Source of the DNA: Syncephalis plumigaleata
Lineage: Eukaryota; Zoopagomycota; Zoopagomycetes; Zoopagales; Piptocephalidaceae
Reading direction: 5' to 3'
DNA length: 40,564 bases
Assembly: GCA_025201365.1 (NCBI GenBank)
Contig: JAIXMF010000095.1
Span: forward strand, 1-40,564
Shown: positions 8,273 to 38,600 of the stretch, piece after piece
Layout of the letters: the number at the start of each line of letters is the position of its first letter
Numbering within the stretch: position 1 is the stretch's first letter
The notes under the pieces: model-generated
What the model saw: the letters and a program-made list of their open reading frames with translations, nothing else
The model's database searches: none
What the model was told of the DNA's origin: nothing
Made by a program: the position numbers and the translations under genes

Positions 8273-8627
8273 CGCGAAAAGAGAAGAGAGAAGAGAGAAG
8301 AGAGAAGAGAGAAGAGGAGGAAAAGAAGAATACGAAAAAGTAACCAGCTGTTGGTGTTGTCTTGGTCGTACAACTATGTCCTATACAACGTGTAGAGAGA
8401 TATCACTCGCTACTCCACAAATGATAAATAGGATGAAAGAAAAGAGGGAGTACGTTGATAGCGATAACTATGGCTTGGCCGTGTGTAGTAGTTTATATAG
8501 ATGCGTTTACATGTCAGTGAATAGGATTGGATATCCCATAAAAAGTAACACCCTGGTTCATATTCAAACTATCGTGGGAAAAATGCCAGTTTTAACGATG
8601 AGCCAATAAAAATTTACATTTATTATT

Positions 8628-16192: not shown

Positions 16193-16204
16193 ATGTTAAC
16201 ATGA
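16193..16204 (+). promoter_or_regulatory. Three-codon upstream ORF overlapping the start codon
   Basis: ATGTTAACATGA: an upstream ATG reads Met-Leu-Thr-stop. Its TGA (16202-16204) overlaps the main ATG (16201-16203). Ribosomes finishing the uORF would sit on the main start, which suggests leaky scanning or termination-coupled restart. Confidence 0.5.
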
Positions 16205-17454
16205 AGTTCTCTACCATCATCGCTATTGCCGTCGCCGTTGTCGCTGTCGCCAGTCTGGTCGCCGTTGAAGCTAGTCCTGCCCTGGAACGTCGTAGTATGT
16301 CTGGCCGTGATCCTATCAATTGATGTACTAATCGTAGTCTATTGTTTCATTGCCCACCGATGATTAGCGATAGCTCGTAAGTTCATGTATATTAAATGGT
16401 TATTTTGACATGCTAATCACATCATAATGTTTATTCCACATATTAATTTGTTAGCTGAATGGGGTAAGCTAGTTTATTGACCATAATAAGTACTATGCTA
16501 ACAGTAATATAAACTAAAATCATGTGTGATTACCATTTCAAGGACCTGTAAGTTATCATTCTGACTATGATGTACGAATACTAACTACGACATGGTTCGC
16601 CATTCTTGTATGCTTGTGGATAACAGCCTGTAAGCTAGTATCCTGATTGTAATGCACAATGTATTAAGAACTATGATATGATACATGATCCACGTATGTT
16701 TGTATACTAGCCTGTAAGTTATCATTCTGATTGTAATGAATGGCGTACTAACTCTGCTATGACACATGATCCACATACATTTTGTATGACAGCCTGTAAG
16801 TTATCATTCCAGTTATAAACTATGCTGTGCTAATTACGATTTGGCACACGATCCACGTATGCTTGTGCATAACAGATGGTAAGTAATCAGAATGATTGCA
16901 ATGAATGATATGCTAATCGCGCTATGGCATACGACCCATTTATGTTTGCGTATGATAGATGGTAAGTTAATATTTCTGGCTGCAAGGAACCGGGCACTGA
17001 TCACAATATGGCACACAATCTATACATTATTGTATGATAGTGGGTAAGTTATCATTCTGACTACAATGAATGGGTACTAACTATTACATGGCACACGATT
17101 CACATACGCTCCTGTATAATAGAACGTAAGTTACCATTCTAATTGTAATGATCGAGATACTAATTACGATATATCACACAAACCATGGATGTTCCTGTAT
17201 AATAGAAAGTAAGTAATCATTCTGACTACAATGAATGAGATACTAATCACAACGTGGCACACGATCCATCTGCCTGTTTACGCTAGCCTGTACGTTACCA
17301 TTCTAATTGTAATGAACGGGTACTAACTATTACATGGCACACGATCCACGTATTTTCTTGTATAACAGCTTGTAAGTAATCATCCCAATCGTCATCTACG
17401 CTACACTAATCACAATACAATCTATATTAATTGATTGAATAGCCACGAGATTAA
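16201..17454 (+). CDS. Secreted-peptide gene made of single-codon microexons
   Basis: Exon 1 (16201-16294) encodes a signal peptide (MKFSTIIAIAVAVVAVASLV, cleavage likely after VEA) and a short pro-segment SPALERR, a Kex2-like dibasic site. Then come exons 16374-16376 (CTC), 16455-16463 (CTGAATGGG) and 16543-16547 (GACCT), followed by ten 3-nt exons: 16627 CCT, 16711 CCT, 16793 CCT, 16876 ATG, 16959 ATG, 17041 TGG, 17123 AAC, 17206 AAA, 17287 CCT and 17369 CTT. A last coding exon 17443-17457 carries TAA at 17452-17454. All join in phase to 50 aa; the predicted mature peptide is TPEWGPPPPMMWNKPLPRD. Introns 1-13 are 78-81 nt, each with GTAAGT (or GTATGT, GTAAGC, GTACGT), a branch point such as TACTAAC at about position 33-40, and a TAG/CAG/AAG acceptor. 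Intron 14 is 71 nt and a following intron 54 nt. Function unknown. The exon structure is predicted only, and alternative splicing could give many products. Confidence 0.7.
16295..17442 (+). repeat. Tandem intron array, ~82-nt period
   Basis: About fourteen consecutive units, each an intron-like sequence followed by a few exon bases. The most similar units share GTAAGTTATCATTCTGA, AATGAATGRGTACTAACT, CATGGCACACGATCCAC and TTGTATAAYAG. Other stretches drift freely, yet donor, branch point and acceptor persist in every unit. Units before 16548 share length and signal spacing but little other sequence, so they look older. The unit length (intron 78-81 plus 3) is nearly constant. Confidence 0.85.
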
Positions 17455-17457
17455 GCA

Positions 17458-17680
17458 GTAAGTAATAATCCACATGCTAATCATACTCATACTAATCCAT
17501 TATGATTACAGGACAAGACAAGGGCATCATCAAGTAGATATTATAGGTATTCAAGTCAAGAATGGATTGGTGCAAGACCCTTTAGTGTCCATGCCATTCA
17601 AGTCATTATTCCTTGGTACAACAACAACAAGTATATCAACAAGTCCCTTACGTCTATTAATCCATGGTCCTATTACATAA
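17458..17680 (+). other. Downstream intron and alternative 3' reading frames
   Basis: GTAAGT at 17458, GCTAAT and CAG ending 17511 form a normal 54-nt intron directly after the stop-bearing exon. The following exon is open in two frames: one to TAA at 17678-17680, the other to a TAA just beyond, about 57 codons. If the acceptor at 17449 or 17455 is used instead of 17442, the stop is bypassed and a ~60-residue C-terminal extension joins in frame. If not, this is 3' UTR. Confidence 0.4.
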
Positions 17681-19840
17681 ATATCCACTAATGGCTGGTT
17701 CATTCATTGAATAAATATGTAATGCTATAGGGCATTCTTCTACTCTATTCATCGTCCGATTCTTTCTTCTACTCCAGCTATGCTCATTACTTATCGTGTG
17801 ACATAAATGAGCATTGTATATCGAGTGAGGTCATCGAGCATTGCTTACACGACTGCTATTTCATCACATATGTCAGTACCCTTAGAACTATGCTTCCTAC
17901 ATATTGTCATTACACTTGGATTACAACCTGTCATAACTATATCTAGTGTTGCTGTATTGCTAGGGAACAAAGACAACGTCAACGTTCCTATACTTTAATG
18001 CTTACATGATACAACAGCATGGAAGCGAGTGATGACAACGCGAGCAATGGGAGTGGTGAAACCACGATTCGATACACATACAAGTGATTATGGAGGACGT
18101 AGTCAAATGTGAAATAGGGAAGAGAGAAAGAGAGAGAGGTAATTGCAACGGATACGTATTCTTCAATGACACATCGTGACACCATTAACAATTGGATCTA
18201 GACATTCTGCTGCACGTCGCATGCATCTACCGCATTGATATACACTAGTGTTTGAATGATTGTGTAGACAACACTAATCAGCATTATTGATAGCAGTTTA
18301 TTCATTATGCACAAGTACATGTATACACTAGTATCAACATCAATCCTCAATCATTATTGTATTGACTGATAATATACGAGGATTGGACAAGTATGAATGG
18401 TCAATCGGTCTATTGATTAATTCGTACTAACTAATGCCATTTACGATAGATGGTGCTCAAAGTGCAAATAGCAGCACTGATCCACATACAATTGTTATGC
18501 TGGAATGAGATGATAAGGAACAGGATAAGCAATTGCAACGTAGCATATGTATGCTGTATACTAACAAGTCATTCTAGATGATTTATACCTTGATCAACAT
18601 TCCGTTACGCTAGCATACGCTATTGGCAAGCTAGGAAAGGCAGTCAAGCCGTTGAATTCTGCTTAATACATGGAATATTCGTTGATCAATAGGAATAAAG
18701 CTTACTTTTGCCCTTCTATTCTTACATTGTTGAACATGCATACACTAGAATGACAATGTCAAACGTATGTCATTTGATTTACATGTAGTCAACGTATATG
18801 TGTGTGAGGGAAGGATACTTGAGCAATGATCATATGAATTGGATGAATGTCGTATCGCATTATAGATATCATTGAGTATGTTCATGCTTTATTGACACGT
18901 CCATATGATTGTGGGATCATTCGATGACATATCATGATGCATTATCTCACTTATTTCCCCTGCTAATCTAAGCTGTCTTGATAGCTTTCTATCATTGCAC
19001 GTATTCTTGCTACTGATCCCGTTTCTGTAAGATGAGCATCATCTTATTATTATCTCGTATGGATTATACGGTTCAATCGAATATAAATAAAATTATTCTA
19101 TTGATAACATTATGAAGCTCTATGTGTACCATTAGGTTCATATAGAGTAGCACAAGTACCTCTCTCTATAGGTGGTATACTATCGTACTATCCTGATTGG
19201 ATGGCTAGCATTTTTTATTACGAACTTGGTCAGTGTACATAATAAATGTAGCATACGTATTTCCTCGCAACAATCAATACAAATAACATACGTGAATGTT
19301 TGATTAGTAATATATTATTTTGACAATAAACATAGTGATATTGAATTTAGTATAGAATATCTGTTGACGTTACATCGTGATCGTCAATTGCAATGGCTAC
19401 AAGGCTTCATTTGACGCGACAATACGAAGAGATATGTACGTTCCAGTCGGATAAACGGAATGCATGATTCCAGTCGGATAAATGTGATCTAAACTCCGTC
19501 CTTAGCCGTTCAAATCGTAACGCGTGACCCAAAATTAGGAAGTCACTACTACCATCATCAGCATCATTGTTTATGCGTAAGCTTACTACTCGTTTCTTAT
19601 TAGTCATATTTTATCTGATATGCCAGCAATGTATATACGCTGTAGCACATAGAATGCAGCTCAACAAGAATAGGTGGAATTATTGATAAAGCAAAAAAAC
19701 ATCGAATAATACTGTGTTATGCACAGCTAAAGCATGCTGGGCCAACTCGAAAGAGCACATGGTTTATTATTCTACGTTACGGTGATAGTAACGATGTCAA
19801 TACCAGTATGAATGATGTTAAAAGAATGACCATACATTGC
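17681..19840. other. Long intergenic stretch with repeats, no confident gene
   Basis: Contains a small pyrimidine-rich piece (17737-17790), a direct-repeat arm (18829-18941), and a short internal duplication around 19440-19485 (TTCCAGTCGGATAAA twice). Frames of 60-67 codons at 17807-17998, 17988-18191 (-) and 19407-19607 (-) show no family likeness. A segment at about 18440-18505 faintly resembles a decayed microexon unit (TACTAAC, GATAGATGGT, GATCCACATACA). Confidence 0.4.
18829..18941 (+). repeat. Direct repeat, downstream copy
   Basis: Same-orientation partner of 14661-14760, carrying an extra ~13 bp (around CTTTATTGACACG). The two copies are 4.2 kb apart with the microexon gene between them. 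Confidence 0.85.
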
Positions 19841-19946: not shown

Positions 19947-21632
19947 ATGTTTTCTAAAAGGATATTGGCCATCCTTCTACTTGGTACGACGATATCTCAC
20001 GGTTCATTAGGTGCCGCTAGAAAGCAAGCTCAAGGCATACTCGACAAACGCGTCAATGATGGTCAACCATTAAATGTTTTCATTAGTACCACGATGGGTA
20101 CATGGTCGCATGCCTCGCCGCAACTCGTATTGTCCGATGTATTGGTGGAGCGCGGCCATAAAGTTGCGTTTGCCAGTTACAATACCTCACTAGATGCCTG
20201 GCTTAAGGACTACCCACACGTACAACCAGTGGATATGGGCACTAACCCGATGCTTAAACACATTGCCATGAGAAGTGCCCATAGAGTGGTATCCGCCGAT
20301 CAAGCTGTAGATTTCATGGAGATGGAACGACTTCTTCATAACATCTTTGGACATAGTTATCGCGATACTTACACATTCTATCGTAATCACTTCACGAATC
20401 ATCCGGTAGATGTGGTCATTTGCGATTTCTTCAATCCTTCCTGCCATGATGCCGCCTATGAGTTTGGCTTACCCTTTGTGGTCACCATGCACATGCTAGG
20501 CTTACTCAGTCAGGAGCGTCCGCCTTACATCACAAATTCATTCGCTGGATTGCCGCCCACCCATGAGACTGCCAGTTTTTTCGAACGTTTCTACGATGCT
20601 ATTGTTCTGCCATTGCGACAACGCCTTTTCTTTAGTGATACTTATAGTGTGCGTCAAGCTGCCATGAAAGAATTAGGCATCGAGTCATATGGTCCATTCG
20701 GTGAACGTTGGCGACACGGTCTCGTGTTGGTTAATACGTTTTTTGGCCTCGAGTTGCCACAACCGGTGCCGCCTAACACGCACTTGATTGGCCCGACTAT
20801 TCCGCACAAGTTCAAGCCGCTACCCGATGATCTACGGGAATTCTTGGATACACACGAGCGTACCGTCTACGTTGGATTCGGTACGGCAGCCATCTTATCT
20901 GGCGAGCGTATCTCGACCATCTTGAGCGCGTTACTCGTCGCACATCGTGACGGTCTGCTCGACGGTGTCATTTGGGGTCTAATGCAGTCGGCCACTAACG
21001 AGAAATCACAACTGCACACGGTTACCGTGGATGGTGTCACGCATAACATTGCTGACATGCGGTCCGGCAAGCATCCGGTGGTGCGTCTAATGGATAAAGC
21101 GCCGCAACGTGCCATCCTAGGCCATTCATCGACCAAGCTATTCATCTCACATTGCGGCGTCAGCTCTCTTTTCGAGACCATGCACGCGGGTGTACCAATT
21201 ATCGGTCTGCCCGCTTTCGGCGATCAGGAGAATAACGCGTTCAAGATGACCGAGATGGGTGCCGCTCTTTGGCTACCAAAGACAAAGGTAACTCAGGATA
21301 CGCTTTACGAGAAACTCTCACTATTACTCTCACCAATGTCGGATGTGGCAAAGACGGCTCGTGACACGATGACACGTCTTCAGAAGATGTTCCACATCGC
21401 CAATCGTGATCATACGAAAGCGGCCGATTTTATCGAAATAGCTGCAATCCCTGGTGCAATGAAATCCTATCAAAGTGCCGACATGCGTATGCCATGGTGG
21501 AAGGCACAAAACTACGATTTGTACGCATTCCTCGTTGCAGTCATTGGCATTGCCACTTTTATTCTTATTTTTATTATTCAATACGTTACAACATTGCTAC
21601 CATTTGGAAAGCGTAAAGAAAAGCAAGCTTAA
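19947..21632 (+). CDS. ER-membrane UDP-glycosyltransferase (GT1/UGT type)
   Basis: Transfers a sugar from a UDP-sugar to a small lipophilic or other acceptor on the lumenal side of the ER. One exon, 561 aa. An in-frame non-ATG extension to 19854 exists, but the first ATG (19947) begins a good signal peptide (RILAILLLGTTISHG). The GT-B C-domain carries the UGT signature at about 385-435: RAILGHSSTKLFISHCGVSS, then LFETMHAGVPIIGLP and FGDQENNAFKM. A single membrane span lies at about 527-550 (FLVAVIGIATFILIFIIQYV), followed by a cytosolic tail ending KEKQA, which fits the KxKxx ER-retrieval pattern. This type I layout with dilysine tail matches animal UGTs rather than the soluble fungal sterol glucosyltransferases (Atg26 type). 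The acceptor cannot be told from sequence. Intronless. Confidence 0.9.
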   Translation: MFSKRILAILLLGTTISHGSLGAARKQAQGILDKRVNDGQPLNVFISTTMGTWSHASPQLVLSDVLVERGHKVAFASYNTSLDAWLKDYPHVQPVDMGTNPMLKHIAMRSAHRVVSADQAVDFMEMERLLHNIFGHSYRDTYTFYRNHFTNHPVDVVICDFFNPSCHDAAYEFGLPFVVTMHMLGLLSQERPPYITNSFAGLPPTHETASFFERFYDAIVLPLRQRLFFSDTYSVRQAAMKELGIESYGPFGERWRHGLVLVNTFFGLELPQPVPPNTHLIGPTIPHKFKPLPDDLREFLDTHERTVYVGFGTAAILSGERISTILSALLVAHRDGLLDGVIWGLMQSATNEKSQLHTVTVDGVTHNIADMRSGKHPVVRLMDKAPQRAILGHSSTKLFISHCGVSSLFETMHAGVPIIGLPAFGDQENNAFKMTEMGAALWLPKTKVTQDTLYEKLSLLLSPMSDVAKTARDTMTRLQKMFHIANRDHTKAADFIEIAAIPGAMKSYQSADMRMPWWKAQNYDLYAFLVAVIGIATFILIFIIQYVTTLLPFGKRKEKQA

Positions 21633-22218
21633 TCATCTATTAACAAACTAGCATTATAGGACTTATTAATAAATATTGTTTTATTTTCTGATATTTGACA
21701 TGGTTCTACTTGACAGCAATGCTATGATTACTTTCTTATTACAAGTGTTAACGTGTCCATTCTAATAGTTATACCTTTCTCTCTCTCTTTATTCATTCAC
21801 TTCGTCAAGTTTTCTCATTCCTCTCATAGCTTTCCCTCTTCGCTTTACTCCGTTCTACTCGTTCCTCCTTCGCATCGACTAGAGGTCGAATGGCTTTCGT
21901 TCTAAAACACTGAAATTATTCTGCTTTTCTTCTTTCCCACGCTTTAAAATGCAGTTTACTCGGCCGTCACTTCCTCAATCGCGAAATGAGCCCAAATAAT
22001 CGCATTTCGCACTTCGCAGGAGTGCTACTATTGCTCATGCTGGATAATGGTGTATCCATAATCCACTGTTATTGTCATTAAAACGATTATCACTTTACTA
22101 CACTGCGCCAGCAACATTAGTTAACACTTGTATATATGGGATATGTTCCCTTTAATCATTGTTATTTTATTTCATAGTATGAATAAAGCGTTACTTTCAT
22201 TCTTATTCTTTAACTGTT
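21633..22218. other. Convergent 3' flanks of two genes
   Basis: Lies between the stop codons of the + glycosyltransferase and the - cytochrome c peroxidase. TTATTAATAAATA at 21663-21675 is a plausible polyadenylation region. A pyrimidine-rich block (about 21776-21890, with TTCTACTCGTTCCTCCTTCG) resembles the words at 500-1600. No gene. Confidence 0.5.
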
Positions 22219-35640: not shown

Positions 35641-38600
35641 ATGTTTGAAGCATTCTCACTGGCCGCGGTGCTGTTATCCGCCGCTATTCTCTTGATCAAT
35701 CGTTTACACTCGTATGTGTATGGTCATGTCACGTATAGTCGTGTCTCGGATGGACAGTCACCGTCGAATGATGCGTTCAAATGCGAGGTACACGACGATA
35801 ACTGGAACGAACTCGATGCGGATGAGTCGACCTTCGAGGTGGCGAGTGTGTTCAGCAGCACTACACACGACCGACTCGACTACACCGATCGTATTAGGCG
35901 TATGATCAAGCGTATTAATACGGATGCCAATCTAGCCAAGATGTTCGGCAGTATGATTGCACTATCCGCGTCCGTGTGGGGTATCTTATGGCAACTACTA
36001 ATGGAACGAAATCGTGGACATCAACACTCAAACCCACATCATGGTCATGGTCATCCACATCATGATCATGGTCATCCACATCATGGTCATGGTCATCCAC
36101 ATCCACAACCGCATCATCGACACTACTATCATCATGATAGCTATGTATATTTCTCTGCTATCAACGCGTGTCTCTGGTTCTACATCACACTGTTGTCCAT
36201 TGCCAATATGCGGTATAGGAAGCAGCACACGTCAAGTCCTCAGATTGTCATACATCAAACGATACTTATTGCCATCGCTTATTGCGGTGGATGGATCGAT
36301 TTTATTACTAGATACTCGACGGGTATTCTGACGGTCTACATTCGTGAAACGCAATGTACACTGATCATTCTACTCGGTGCTCATATCGCGGCCATCGGTC
36401 TACTATGGACGCGTGGTAAAGCTGAGACCACCGCTAGTGGACGATTGAAATCACTGGAATCGAGTGCCTCCATCTACGAGTGGTGCTTCGTCAGTTGGAT
36501 GTCACCGATCATGGCGGATGGCGCGAAGAAACCCCTAGGCAATAGTGATATGTGGGAGTTGCCGGAGAGTAGTCAAACGAGCCCGCTCATCAAACGATAT
36601 GAATACTACAAGTAAGTGGTGAATACACACAACATTCACTAATGATGATGATGATGATCTATTACTAACGAATATGTATATATTATAGTCACAATCGAGC
36701 ATTTGGCACCTATGGACTCTTCATTGCTTGTTGGCCACAACTGGCTAAGCAATTCGTGTATAGCATCCTGTGGAGTATCGTTACCTTTGGCGTGCCAATC
36801 TTCTTTTACCTACTGCTTCAAGATCTTAGCAGTGTCGACGCTCGTGACTCAAAGGCCTGGCTTTACTTGGCCGGTATGTTCATCAGTATGATACTGTGTA
36901 GTATTCTATTCCAGTTATGCTGTATGGCTGGACAATGTGCCGGATTACAGTTCAAAAGTATCATGTCGAATGAGATATTCAAGATGTGTCTAAAACAACA
37001 CATGCCTATCACTAAGCATGACGACAACAACGCGGAATCCACCGATACCACGTCTAATGGCAAGAATAACTCATCCAAATGGGACAAGGGCGCAGTGACC
37101 AATCTATTGGGTAGCGATGCCAACATGTTCCACGAAGCGATCGCTAATCTTCACGCTCTCTTGGGAGGCATTCTACAAGTAATAATTGGTTGCACGCTAA
37201 TCTGGTATATCGTGGGCGAGGCCATCCTGTTCACACTATTGGCCATTCTCTTTTACACTTGCGCGAACTTTGTAGTGATGCGACTTAGCCCTGGATTAAT
37301 ATTCAAGCGTCAGACAGCCATCGGCAAACGTCTATCCTTGGTTAACGAGGTAAGCAATCGATCTACCGTCGTTTTTTTAACATTTCCATTACTAACGATG
37401 ACGATAACTAGATGTTACAATCGATACGAGTGGTCAAGCTATTCTCATGGGAGCAACAATCGTGCGCTCGTATTGATGAAGCGCGTGAAGCGGAACTACG
37501 CGCTATATGGGTGAACTTTTGCAACTTTTGTATTTTCGCCGTGCTAAGCTCAATTGCACCGGTGCTAATCACGGTCGCTACCCTTGGCTCCTACACGCTA
37601 TGGTATGGCAATAAGCTTGAGCCCACCACGGCATTCACTTGTATCGCCCTGCTCGAATCTCTAAGAACCGCAATGAGCATGCTGCCCGACAGTGTATTCT
37701 TCACCATACAATACGTTGTTATTATGAGGCGAATCAAGCAGTTCCTATCCGGGCCCACGGTCGACACGGAATCAGAACGCCTACATCCCGCCGCCGTACC
37801 CGCTAGTTCCGATCGTATCGGCTTTATTAATGGCAAGTTTGCATGGAAGATCAACGAGGACTCGCAAACGCAATCGAGATGTAGCGATACGTCGACCGAG
37901 CATTCCGTGTTTACACTCAAGGAGCTTGATGTCGAGTTCAAGGTTGGCAAGTTAAACGTCGTTGCTGGGCCCACCGGTAGTGGCAAGACCTCGCTCCTTC
38001 TAGCATTACTCGGAGGTAAGTGGCAGGTAACATCGATCGTTGATGCACGCTAATCCAATGAACGCTACGTAGAAATGCCCCGTATCGAGGGTAGAATACT
38101 ACTTCCTCGACCTAGACGACACGTGAATGCAATGGGTGTCGCCTGTAGCGATATAGGCTATGTGGCGCAGCAAGCATGGCTACAGAACTCTAGCATTCGT
38201 GATAACATCCTCTTCGGCCAACCGTACGATGAACGACGATATCAGCAAGTGTTGTACGCATGTGCGCTAGAACGAGACTTGGAGATACTAGATGCCGGTG
38301 ATCGTACCCAAGTGGGCGAGAAGGGCGTGGTGTTGTCGGGTGGTCAGAAACAACGAGTAGCCCTGGCACGAGCGGTCTACGGACCCGCCCAGCATGTTTT
38401 ATTCGATGACTGTTTGTCGGCGGTCGATGCACATACCGCTCGACATATCGTGCAACACTGTCTATCGGGACCATTGATGGATGGACGTACACGTATTCTC
38501 GTCACGCATCACGTCGATATATGCATATCGATAGCGGAATTTGCAGTTCTACTGAACGCTGGTCAAATTGTTGCATCGGGTGATCCAGACACGGTACTCT

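Follow-up and report, generated by a model that had tools for sequence, protein, structure and literature searches.

In the fungus Syncephalis plumigaleata, a family of genes built as intron arrays very probably consists of working protein-coding genes for small secreted peptides, whose mature part would be spelled one codon, and sometimes two to four codons, per exon. The member from which the analysis set out lies in a stretch of 40,564 nucleotides, here called the window, at 16201-17457. A leader exon of 94 nt is followed by exons of 3, 9 and 5 nt, ten exons of 3 nt and one of 15 nt, and the joined frame closes with TAA (Table 1). Introns 1-13 are 78-81 nt long, and intron 14 is 71 nt. The joined peptide is predicted to be MKFSTIIAIAVAVVAVASLVAVEASPALERR/TPEWGPPPPMMWNKPLPRD, with the cut drawn between the two parts; the leader in exon 1, judged by eye, is hydrophobic and terminates in RR. 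For the intron in the 3' UTR there are two candidate acceptors, 17511, which makes it 54 nt and fits the intronless relative L026, versus 17546, which makes it 89 nt and is the choice of the chain model described below.

These coordinates and this peptide are those of the original prediction, and they proved correct when donors, acceptors and joined frame were read again; the ten successive 3-nt exons, the length range of introns 1-13 and the single frame to TAA were likewise reproduced. The prediction had given every unit a GTAAGT donor and a branch point. That description suits most units and fails for 4 of the 15 donors (GTATGT, GTACGT and, twice, GTAAGC) and for introns 5 and 9, where the branch points are weak. 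Its central proposal, a secreted precursor encoded by exons of one residue each, appears strongly supported by the comparative evidence. The window gene is no longer to be seen as a one-off, since the peptide of exon 1 matches at least 150 places in the genome (haplotype copies included) and at least one unrelated gene is alike in layout.

Table 1. Predicted features of the window gene, in window coordinates
Feature	Position	Strand	Basis
Exon 1, 94 nt: start codon, signal-peptide-like leader, RR (Kex2-like) site; closes in phase 1	16201..16294	+	sequence, gene model, similar peptide at at least 150 places
Intron 1, 79 nt, GTATGT...TAG	16295..16373	+	sequence, chain model
Micro-exon 2, CTC, phase 1	16374..16376	+	sequence, chain model
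Micro-exon 3, 9 nt, CTGAATGGG	16455..16463	+	sequence, chain model
Micro-exon 4, GACCT, 5 nt, brings frame back to phase 0	16543..16547	+	sequence, chain model
Single-codon exon 5, CCT (Pro)	16627..16629	+	sequence, chain model
Single-codon exon 6, CCT (Pro)	16711..16713	+	sequence, chain model
Single-codon exon 7, CCT (Pro)	16793..16795	+	sequence, chain model
Single-codon exon 8, ATG (Met)	16876..16878	+	sequence, chain model
Single-codon exon 9, ATG (Met)	16959..16961	+	sequence, chain model
Single-codon exon 10, TGG (Trp)	17041..17043	+	sequence, chain model
Single-codon exon 11, AAC (Asn)	17123..17125	+	sequence, chain model
Single-codon exon 12, AAA (Lys)	17206..17208	+	sequence, chain model
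Single-codon exon 13, CCT (Pro)	17287..17289	+	sequence, chain model
Single-codon exon 14, CTT (Leu)	17369..17371	+	sequence, chain model
Final coding exon, 15 nt, CCACGAGATTAAGCA = Pro Arg Asp stop; TAA at 17452-17454	17443..17457	+	sequence, chain model
3'-UTR intron, begins 3 nt past the stop codon	17458..17511	+	acceptor inferred from intronless relative L026
3' UTR, AATAAA at 17710-17715	17512..17715	+	sequence
TATA-like box CTATAAAT, 5' of the start codon	16064..16071	+	sequence

Might such an array be an accident of sequence? Shuffles, together with motif counts in this genome, in prokaryotes and in viruses, led us to reject a chance array. An intron-chain search that had no exon-length preference returned a chain of 16 introns with a score of 333 at the window gene (one of its introns at the 5' end, with exon '41', seems spurious and was taken out of the model), and 20 mononucleotide shuffles of related loci, of up to 6 kb, gave chains of at most 5 introns and a best score of 49. 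A strict motif, two successive 3-nt exons between GTAAGT introns, was searched for throughout the 32.6-Mb eukaryotic assembly. It has 1,456 matches (788 + 668), which are not independent of one another because at least some regions occur as two haplotype-like copies, against 11 for the reversed control. Nor can an exon-size preference inside the model be blamed, as none was used and the same motif with a 4-nt middle exon had no match genome-wide. With TAG as the middle codon there was again no match in the genome, and with TAA or TGA there were two, which are one sequence found twice, its letters unlike the peptide family. Among bacterial and archaeal contigs totalling 257 Gb, the two-unit motif turned up in 98 stretches, and among viral contigs in nine.

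The DNA of the array matches at least 110 stretches of the same genome (40 of the 256 candidates were scored), and 40 loci of at most 6.3 kb were taken for modelling. The chain model scores donors, branch points and acceptors and favours no exon length; in its anchored version, where the sole length term is a penalty on exons longer than 20 nt, it yielded 37 array genes. Loci L005-L008 and the duplicates L001 and L002 stand outside the anchored models. The near-copies L009, L019, L020, L024, L028 and L047 were left out of the stop, codon and splice-site counts, and the same set except L047 was left out of the tests of intron similarity; L003 and L004, an allelic-looking pair, were both kept.

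The 37 models have 904 internal exons, 765 of exactly 3 nt and 859 of a length divisible by three. The longest unbroken run of single codons is 37 exons (L015), and the most introns in one model is 48 (L010 and L028). Exon 1 is 94 nt long and ends in phase 1 in every model, and the last micro-exon begins in phase 0 in 30 of the 37. Among the 3-nt exons counted for phase (n = 626), 543 are in phase 0, 53 in phase 1 and 30 in phase 2; exons of 5 nt (30 across the 37 models) and 2 nt (10) mostly restore phase 0. By the criterion of the script, the frame is open up to the last micro-exon in 29 of the 37 models, and two more, L009 and L023, missed it through the ends of their chains alone. The other six (L016, L021, L024, L034, L043 and the second gene of L036) have no clean open frame: one has an interrupted array, one an in-frame stop, three a 2-nt exon inside the array, and one lacks a phase-restoring exon. 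L022 also lacks such an exon, yet its frame counts as open. Nine models (L011, L012, L015, L025, L030, L034, L035, L038 and L046) assemble a C...CC...C cysteine pattern from separate codons, L034 being the one among them with an irregular frame. Compared with that of L025, the array of L024 holds about 2.2 kb of extra DNA.

Are the triplets codons? No stop occurs among the 626 3-nt exons (543 in phase 0), and 41 would be expected from intron triplets. Avoidance of NYA triplets accounts for part of this lack of stops: read as their reverse complement, the 543 phase-0 triplets likewise contain just one. A cleaner test than the raw count is that of TAA and TGA within NRA triplets, the class free of splicing avoidance: of 85 such triplets none is TAA or TGA, and about 29 T-first triplets would be expected from the other triplets. 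The family itself supplies a second measure. Thirteen intronless members have a similar prepro-region (L026, L027, L033, L041 and nine of 20 short loci), and twelve of them share a common start of the 3' UTR, L065 being the exception. Synonymous codon choice in the array triplets correlates with that in the mature regions of 11 of these members at r = 0.85 (Met, Trp, Cys and Tyr excluded, and the near-copies L062 and L063 dropped), and scrambled readings of the triplets give 0.46 for the reverse complement, 0.12 for the reversed and -0.03 and 0.28 for the two rotated forms. Ordinary open reading frames of the window are a poor fit either way, with r = 0.34 for the triplets and 0.33 for their reverse complement. 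At the third position of the 3-nt exons, codons that begin with a pyrimidine favour T (45 C : 136 T) and those that begin with a purine favour C (125 C : 82 T); in the intronless relatives the former also favour T (29:89) and the latter slightly favour T (92:127).

The intronless members bear on the 3' end as well. In L026 the stop codon and 3' UTR are contiguous, TAAGCA-AACAAGACAAGG, and removal of the last intron of the window gene joins TAAGCA to GACAAGACAAGG, which is the L026 join save for one base. Among the 13 intronless peptides compared, none is a retrocopy, that is, an intronless copy of an array peptide.

The codons also appear to be fitted to the splice sites on either side of them. 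Codons that would make a rival YAG acceptor (CAG, or NYA before GT), 3-4 nt downstream of the true one, number 4 among 542 array triplets versus 37 among 514 codons of intronless relatives (p = 2e-8). Codons that create RAG, a poorer acceptor, are equally frequent in the two sets (103 of 542 and 108 of 514). In six four-fold boxes, A-ending codons make up 2 of 134 in arrays versus 23 of 181 in intronless members. In all five internal phase-0 6-nt exons that were counted the first codon ends in A, as it does in three more in the L013 gene, as if no intron were tolerated behind it. Within the introns, AG is rare between branch point and acceptor (304 versus about 1,299 in shuffles, with none in 597 of 770 introns), and the stretch from donor to branch point is likewise poor in AG, if less so (441 versus about 1,043). 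In the stretch before the acceptor, the remaining AGs are YAG in 183 cases and RAG in 110, a bias that runs against a simple exclusion zone.

That codons making a rival YAG acceptor are avoided suggests that precise use of the splice sites is under selection, and this matters for one alternative, in which splicing is variable and the spliceosome joins differing subsets of the codon exons, so that each gene yields a peptide library. Skipping of a phase-0 3-nt exon would indeed be frame-neutral, and donors, acceptors and spacing are near-uniform, as such a scheme might have it. Selection for precise splice sites speaks against it, and random skipping would destroy the cysteine pattern of the nine models; we judge a library of this kind distinctly unlikely.

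Signals expected at the ends of transcription units are found around the arrays. TATAAA stands 126-171 nt 5' of the ATG in 21 of 31 models versus 2 of 38 control stretches of equal length, and all 31 have AATAAA within 300 nt past the last intron, versus 6 of 38 such stretches. A scan for bacterial promoters, which do not apply to a fungus, had no hit. One might suppose that the arrays are a minisatellite, decayed or never transcribed, whose motifs resemble splice sites, or else an artefact of assembly, given that the copies are repeats and that six of the 37 models are not cleanly open. Against this, the triplets lack stops and have the codon usage of the family, the splice constraints hold, and the TATA-like box and AATAAA exceed the control; arrays are moreover carried by many contigs, and that of the window is present on two haplotype-like contigs. 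Such an explanation seems to us hardly credible. The second copy of the window array is on contig C362 near 391-397 kb, where the array and the 2-kb stretch 20000-22000 of the window are matched at 98-100% identity, and in view of this near-identity the contig of the window (C379) probably represents that region's other haplotype. The short contigs C32, C40 and C164 carry loci that match loci on long contigs in like manner.

Could the 3-nt pieces be non-coding stepping stones, by which the whole array is excised in steps as one long intron? Serial donors and acceptors at a fixed spacing do recall recursive splicing. In recursive splicing and stwintrons, however, AG is joined directly to GT, or an intron is nested in a splice site; most units of the fungal arrays have exactly 3 nt between acceptor and donor. 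The triplets, without stops and with the family's codon usage, would be odd debris, and the constancy of phase at both ends of the array (phase 1 after exon 1 throughout, phase 0 at the last micro-exon in 30 of 37 models) is likewise out of keeping with a non-coding interior. Excision in steps is thus very improbable. A single long intron that omits all codon exons was rejected, since joining exon 1 to the last exon would break the frame in most models.

What kind of change accounts for arrays of coding single-codon exons? The original prediction invoked tandem duplication of an intron-plus-codon unit. As the chief source, local tandem duplication had to be rejected, because adjacent introns within a gene resemble each other little more than introns taken from separate genes do (mean score 29.4 versus 27.0). 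In 76 of 216 cases of high similarity, single introns in distant genes are highly similar and the introns that flank them are at background. By their sequences, the array introns appear to make up a single family of dispersed repeats. An intron and its best match in another gene carry an identical codon in 60% of 109 collinear cases and in 9% of 76 isolated ones, with 3.4% by chance; the low figure for isolated matches indicates that a lone dispersed intron usually does not bring its codon along.

Two allele-like pairs, L047/L048 and L003/L004, are matched along nearly the whole of the spans fetched, yet within each pair the copies differ by two complete intron-plus-codon units, so that the predicted peptides differ in length and sequence. 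Aligned to the flanking introns of L004, the junction intron of L003 fits a two-parent chimera at 70 of 80 columns, where the single parents reach 46 and 62 and the parents in reverse order 62. In the window gene the junction intron is the tenth in order, in the TGG/AAC region, and it looks recombined relative to the paralog L004, the chimera fitting at 83 of 90 columns against 56 and 77, with 77 in reverse order. The junction of L047/L048 does not discriminate (77 for the chimera versus 76). Units thus appear to be gained or lost whole, via a chimera-like intron in two of the three comparisons. In 113 paired codon exons, from six pairs that share members, there are 8 nonsynonymous changes and 1 synonymous change, with intron divergence of 1.2-7.5%, and the codon exons change about as fast as the introns. 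Neutral or diversifying change could account for these counts, and purifying selection on the residues is not evident.

Introners, large families of similar introns dispersed through one genome, offer another route to the arrays. Mobile introns of that sort might have been inserted serially into a contiguous peptide exon, with the intronless relatives as the ancestral form. The existence of those relatives, the dispersed intron family and the lone introns similar between distant genes (the 76 of 216 cases) are all in accord with this history. However, phase-0 insertion at nearly every codon boundary demands a targeting rule, and we know of none for insertion at almost each such boundary; intron-plus-codon units, moreover, are gained and lost whole, and it is as arrays of such units that the fungal repeats appear, unlike introners. 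Serial insertion strikes us as rather unlikely, albeit not negligible. A bolder reading is a codon-cassette system, in which dozens to more than 100 genes would consist of interchangeable intron-plus-codon units, the intron repeats would recombine within and between genes, secreted peptides would be rewritten codon by codon with the frame intact, and the alleles of a single individual would already encode different peptides. This proposal is a serious candidate that falls somewhat short of probable.

Single-codon arrays are not confined to the secreted family. A gene whose product begins MESSADNNNN, on contigs C135 and C364 (L013 with L176, and L014), has an array layout like that of the window family, with most exons 3 nt long, and is by eye unrelated to it in sequence and free of a signal peptide. 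The longer of its models has 48 introns; exon 1 is 82 and 85 nt long, with the frame preserved. The joined protein had no Pfam match in two forms and no PDB match in the one form compared. More single-codon arrays lie outside the listed matches to exon 1, at C1:2256065-2256396, C1:2473498-2474291 and C1:1413136-1416851. As for the surroundings of the window gene, a dispersed repeat at about 21695-22000 has more than 12 other copies, mostly at 81-94% identity; some of them, on C112 and C223, are close to genes of the peptide family. Short tandem repeats are present at 676-773 (42-nt), 8276-8329 (GA-rich) and 36034-36122 (a 21/42-nt unit whose reading as coding sequence would give a His-rich repeat). 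Neighboring open reading frames at 9877-39301 have Pfam matches to proline dehydrogenase, UDP-glycosyltransferase, HEAT repeats of GCN1/EF3 type, an ABC transporter and, weakly, a peroxidase. In the genome at large, the N-terminal domain of fungal-type chitin synthase has 4 matches, against none in 14 control genomes; IFT57 has no match, a weak sign given that genes are split by introns.

How do the arrays compare with known systems? In the full-text literature searched, made up mostly of open papers and exclusive of preprints, we found no description of serial single-codon exons. Among the closest counterparts are the micro-exon genes of schistosomes, in which a signal-peptide exon is followed by many tiny exons divisible by three, about 6-36 nt long, and the products are secreted, variable proteins. 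The fungal coding regions too consist mainly of tiny exons divisible by three (859 of 904). They differ in a modal exon of 3 nt, in runs of up to 37 such exons, and in near-equal introns that seem to come from one repeat family. Conotoxin-type precursors combine a conserved prepro-region with a variable mature peptide, as the fungal precursors would, and the gene architecture differs. Eight joined precursors were compared with Pfam and none matched a family above cut-off; that of L012 has a weak match to Conotoxin (PF02950; E = 0.012, 17.0 bits versus a gathering cut-off of 25.1), the other seven had no match to it, and the score below cut-off rules out membership.

The aphid bicycle genes are putative effectors that evolve fast and are split into numerous micro-exons of a uniform phase, nearly all internal exons being in phase 2 and a gene having about 17 exons on average (PMC9168663). 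The fungal exons differ in being mostly of phase 0 and 3 nt long, with up to 48 introns per gene. By its layout the window family works like a micro-exon gene, and we place it in neither the schistosome nor the bicycle family. Isolated exons of 1-3 nt are described for plant APC11 and VPS55, for Ncam and for Drosophila TnT, and two of 3 nt for lipS of the fungus Dactylellina (PMC8831610, PMC8042270, PMC5639578). Such exons lie singly in ordinary genes, whereas the fungal arrays are serial and would spell a peptide. RPS24 is another gene reported to have so small an exon.

The probable course of expression would be as follows. Each intron of about 80 nt would be recognized singly, by its GTAAGT donor, TACTAAY branch point and YAG acceptor, and removed, with one codon left between it and the next. 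If an intron is recognized by itself (intron definition), exon size hardly matters. Neighboring introns would be removed in succession, because sites 3 nt apart could scarcely be occupied together; stepwise removal and intron definition, applied here to the arrays, are drawn from what is generally known of splicing. The conserved prepro-region would direct secretion and cutting after RR, and the array would spell the variable mature peptide. Since the introns share a repeat family and a phase-0 codon exon does not shift the frame, recombination within introns could add, remove or swap whole codons and leave the reading intact. We infer that spliced transcripts of the predicted form are made, that the products are secreted and cleaved, and that recombination is the main source of change. 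A conserved leader joined to a variable mature part may point to a role in interaction with other organisms.

If transcripts confirm the models, these genes would mark the lower limit of the micro-exon gene, with runs of up to 37 successive one-codon exons. Intron definition alone would then join exons too small for any exon signal, dozens of them per transcript. Annotation often overlooks micro-exons of the smallest size or gets them wrong (PMC8831610, PMC8042270), so that similar peptide families could be overlooked elsewhere. Why might so laborious a gene structure persist? A possible reason is that frame-neutral codon cassettes allow a secreted peptide to be rewritten unit by unit. Should the codon-cassette reading be true, this fungus would practice exon shuffling at the resolution of a single residue, and what makes this possible would be a spliceosome for which joining 3-nt exons by the dozen is routine.
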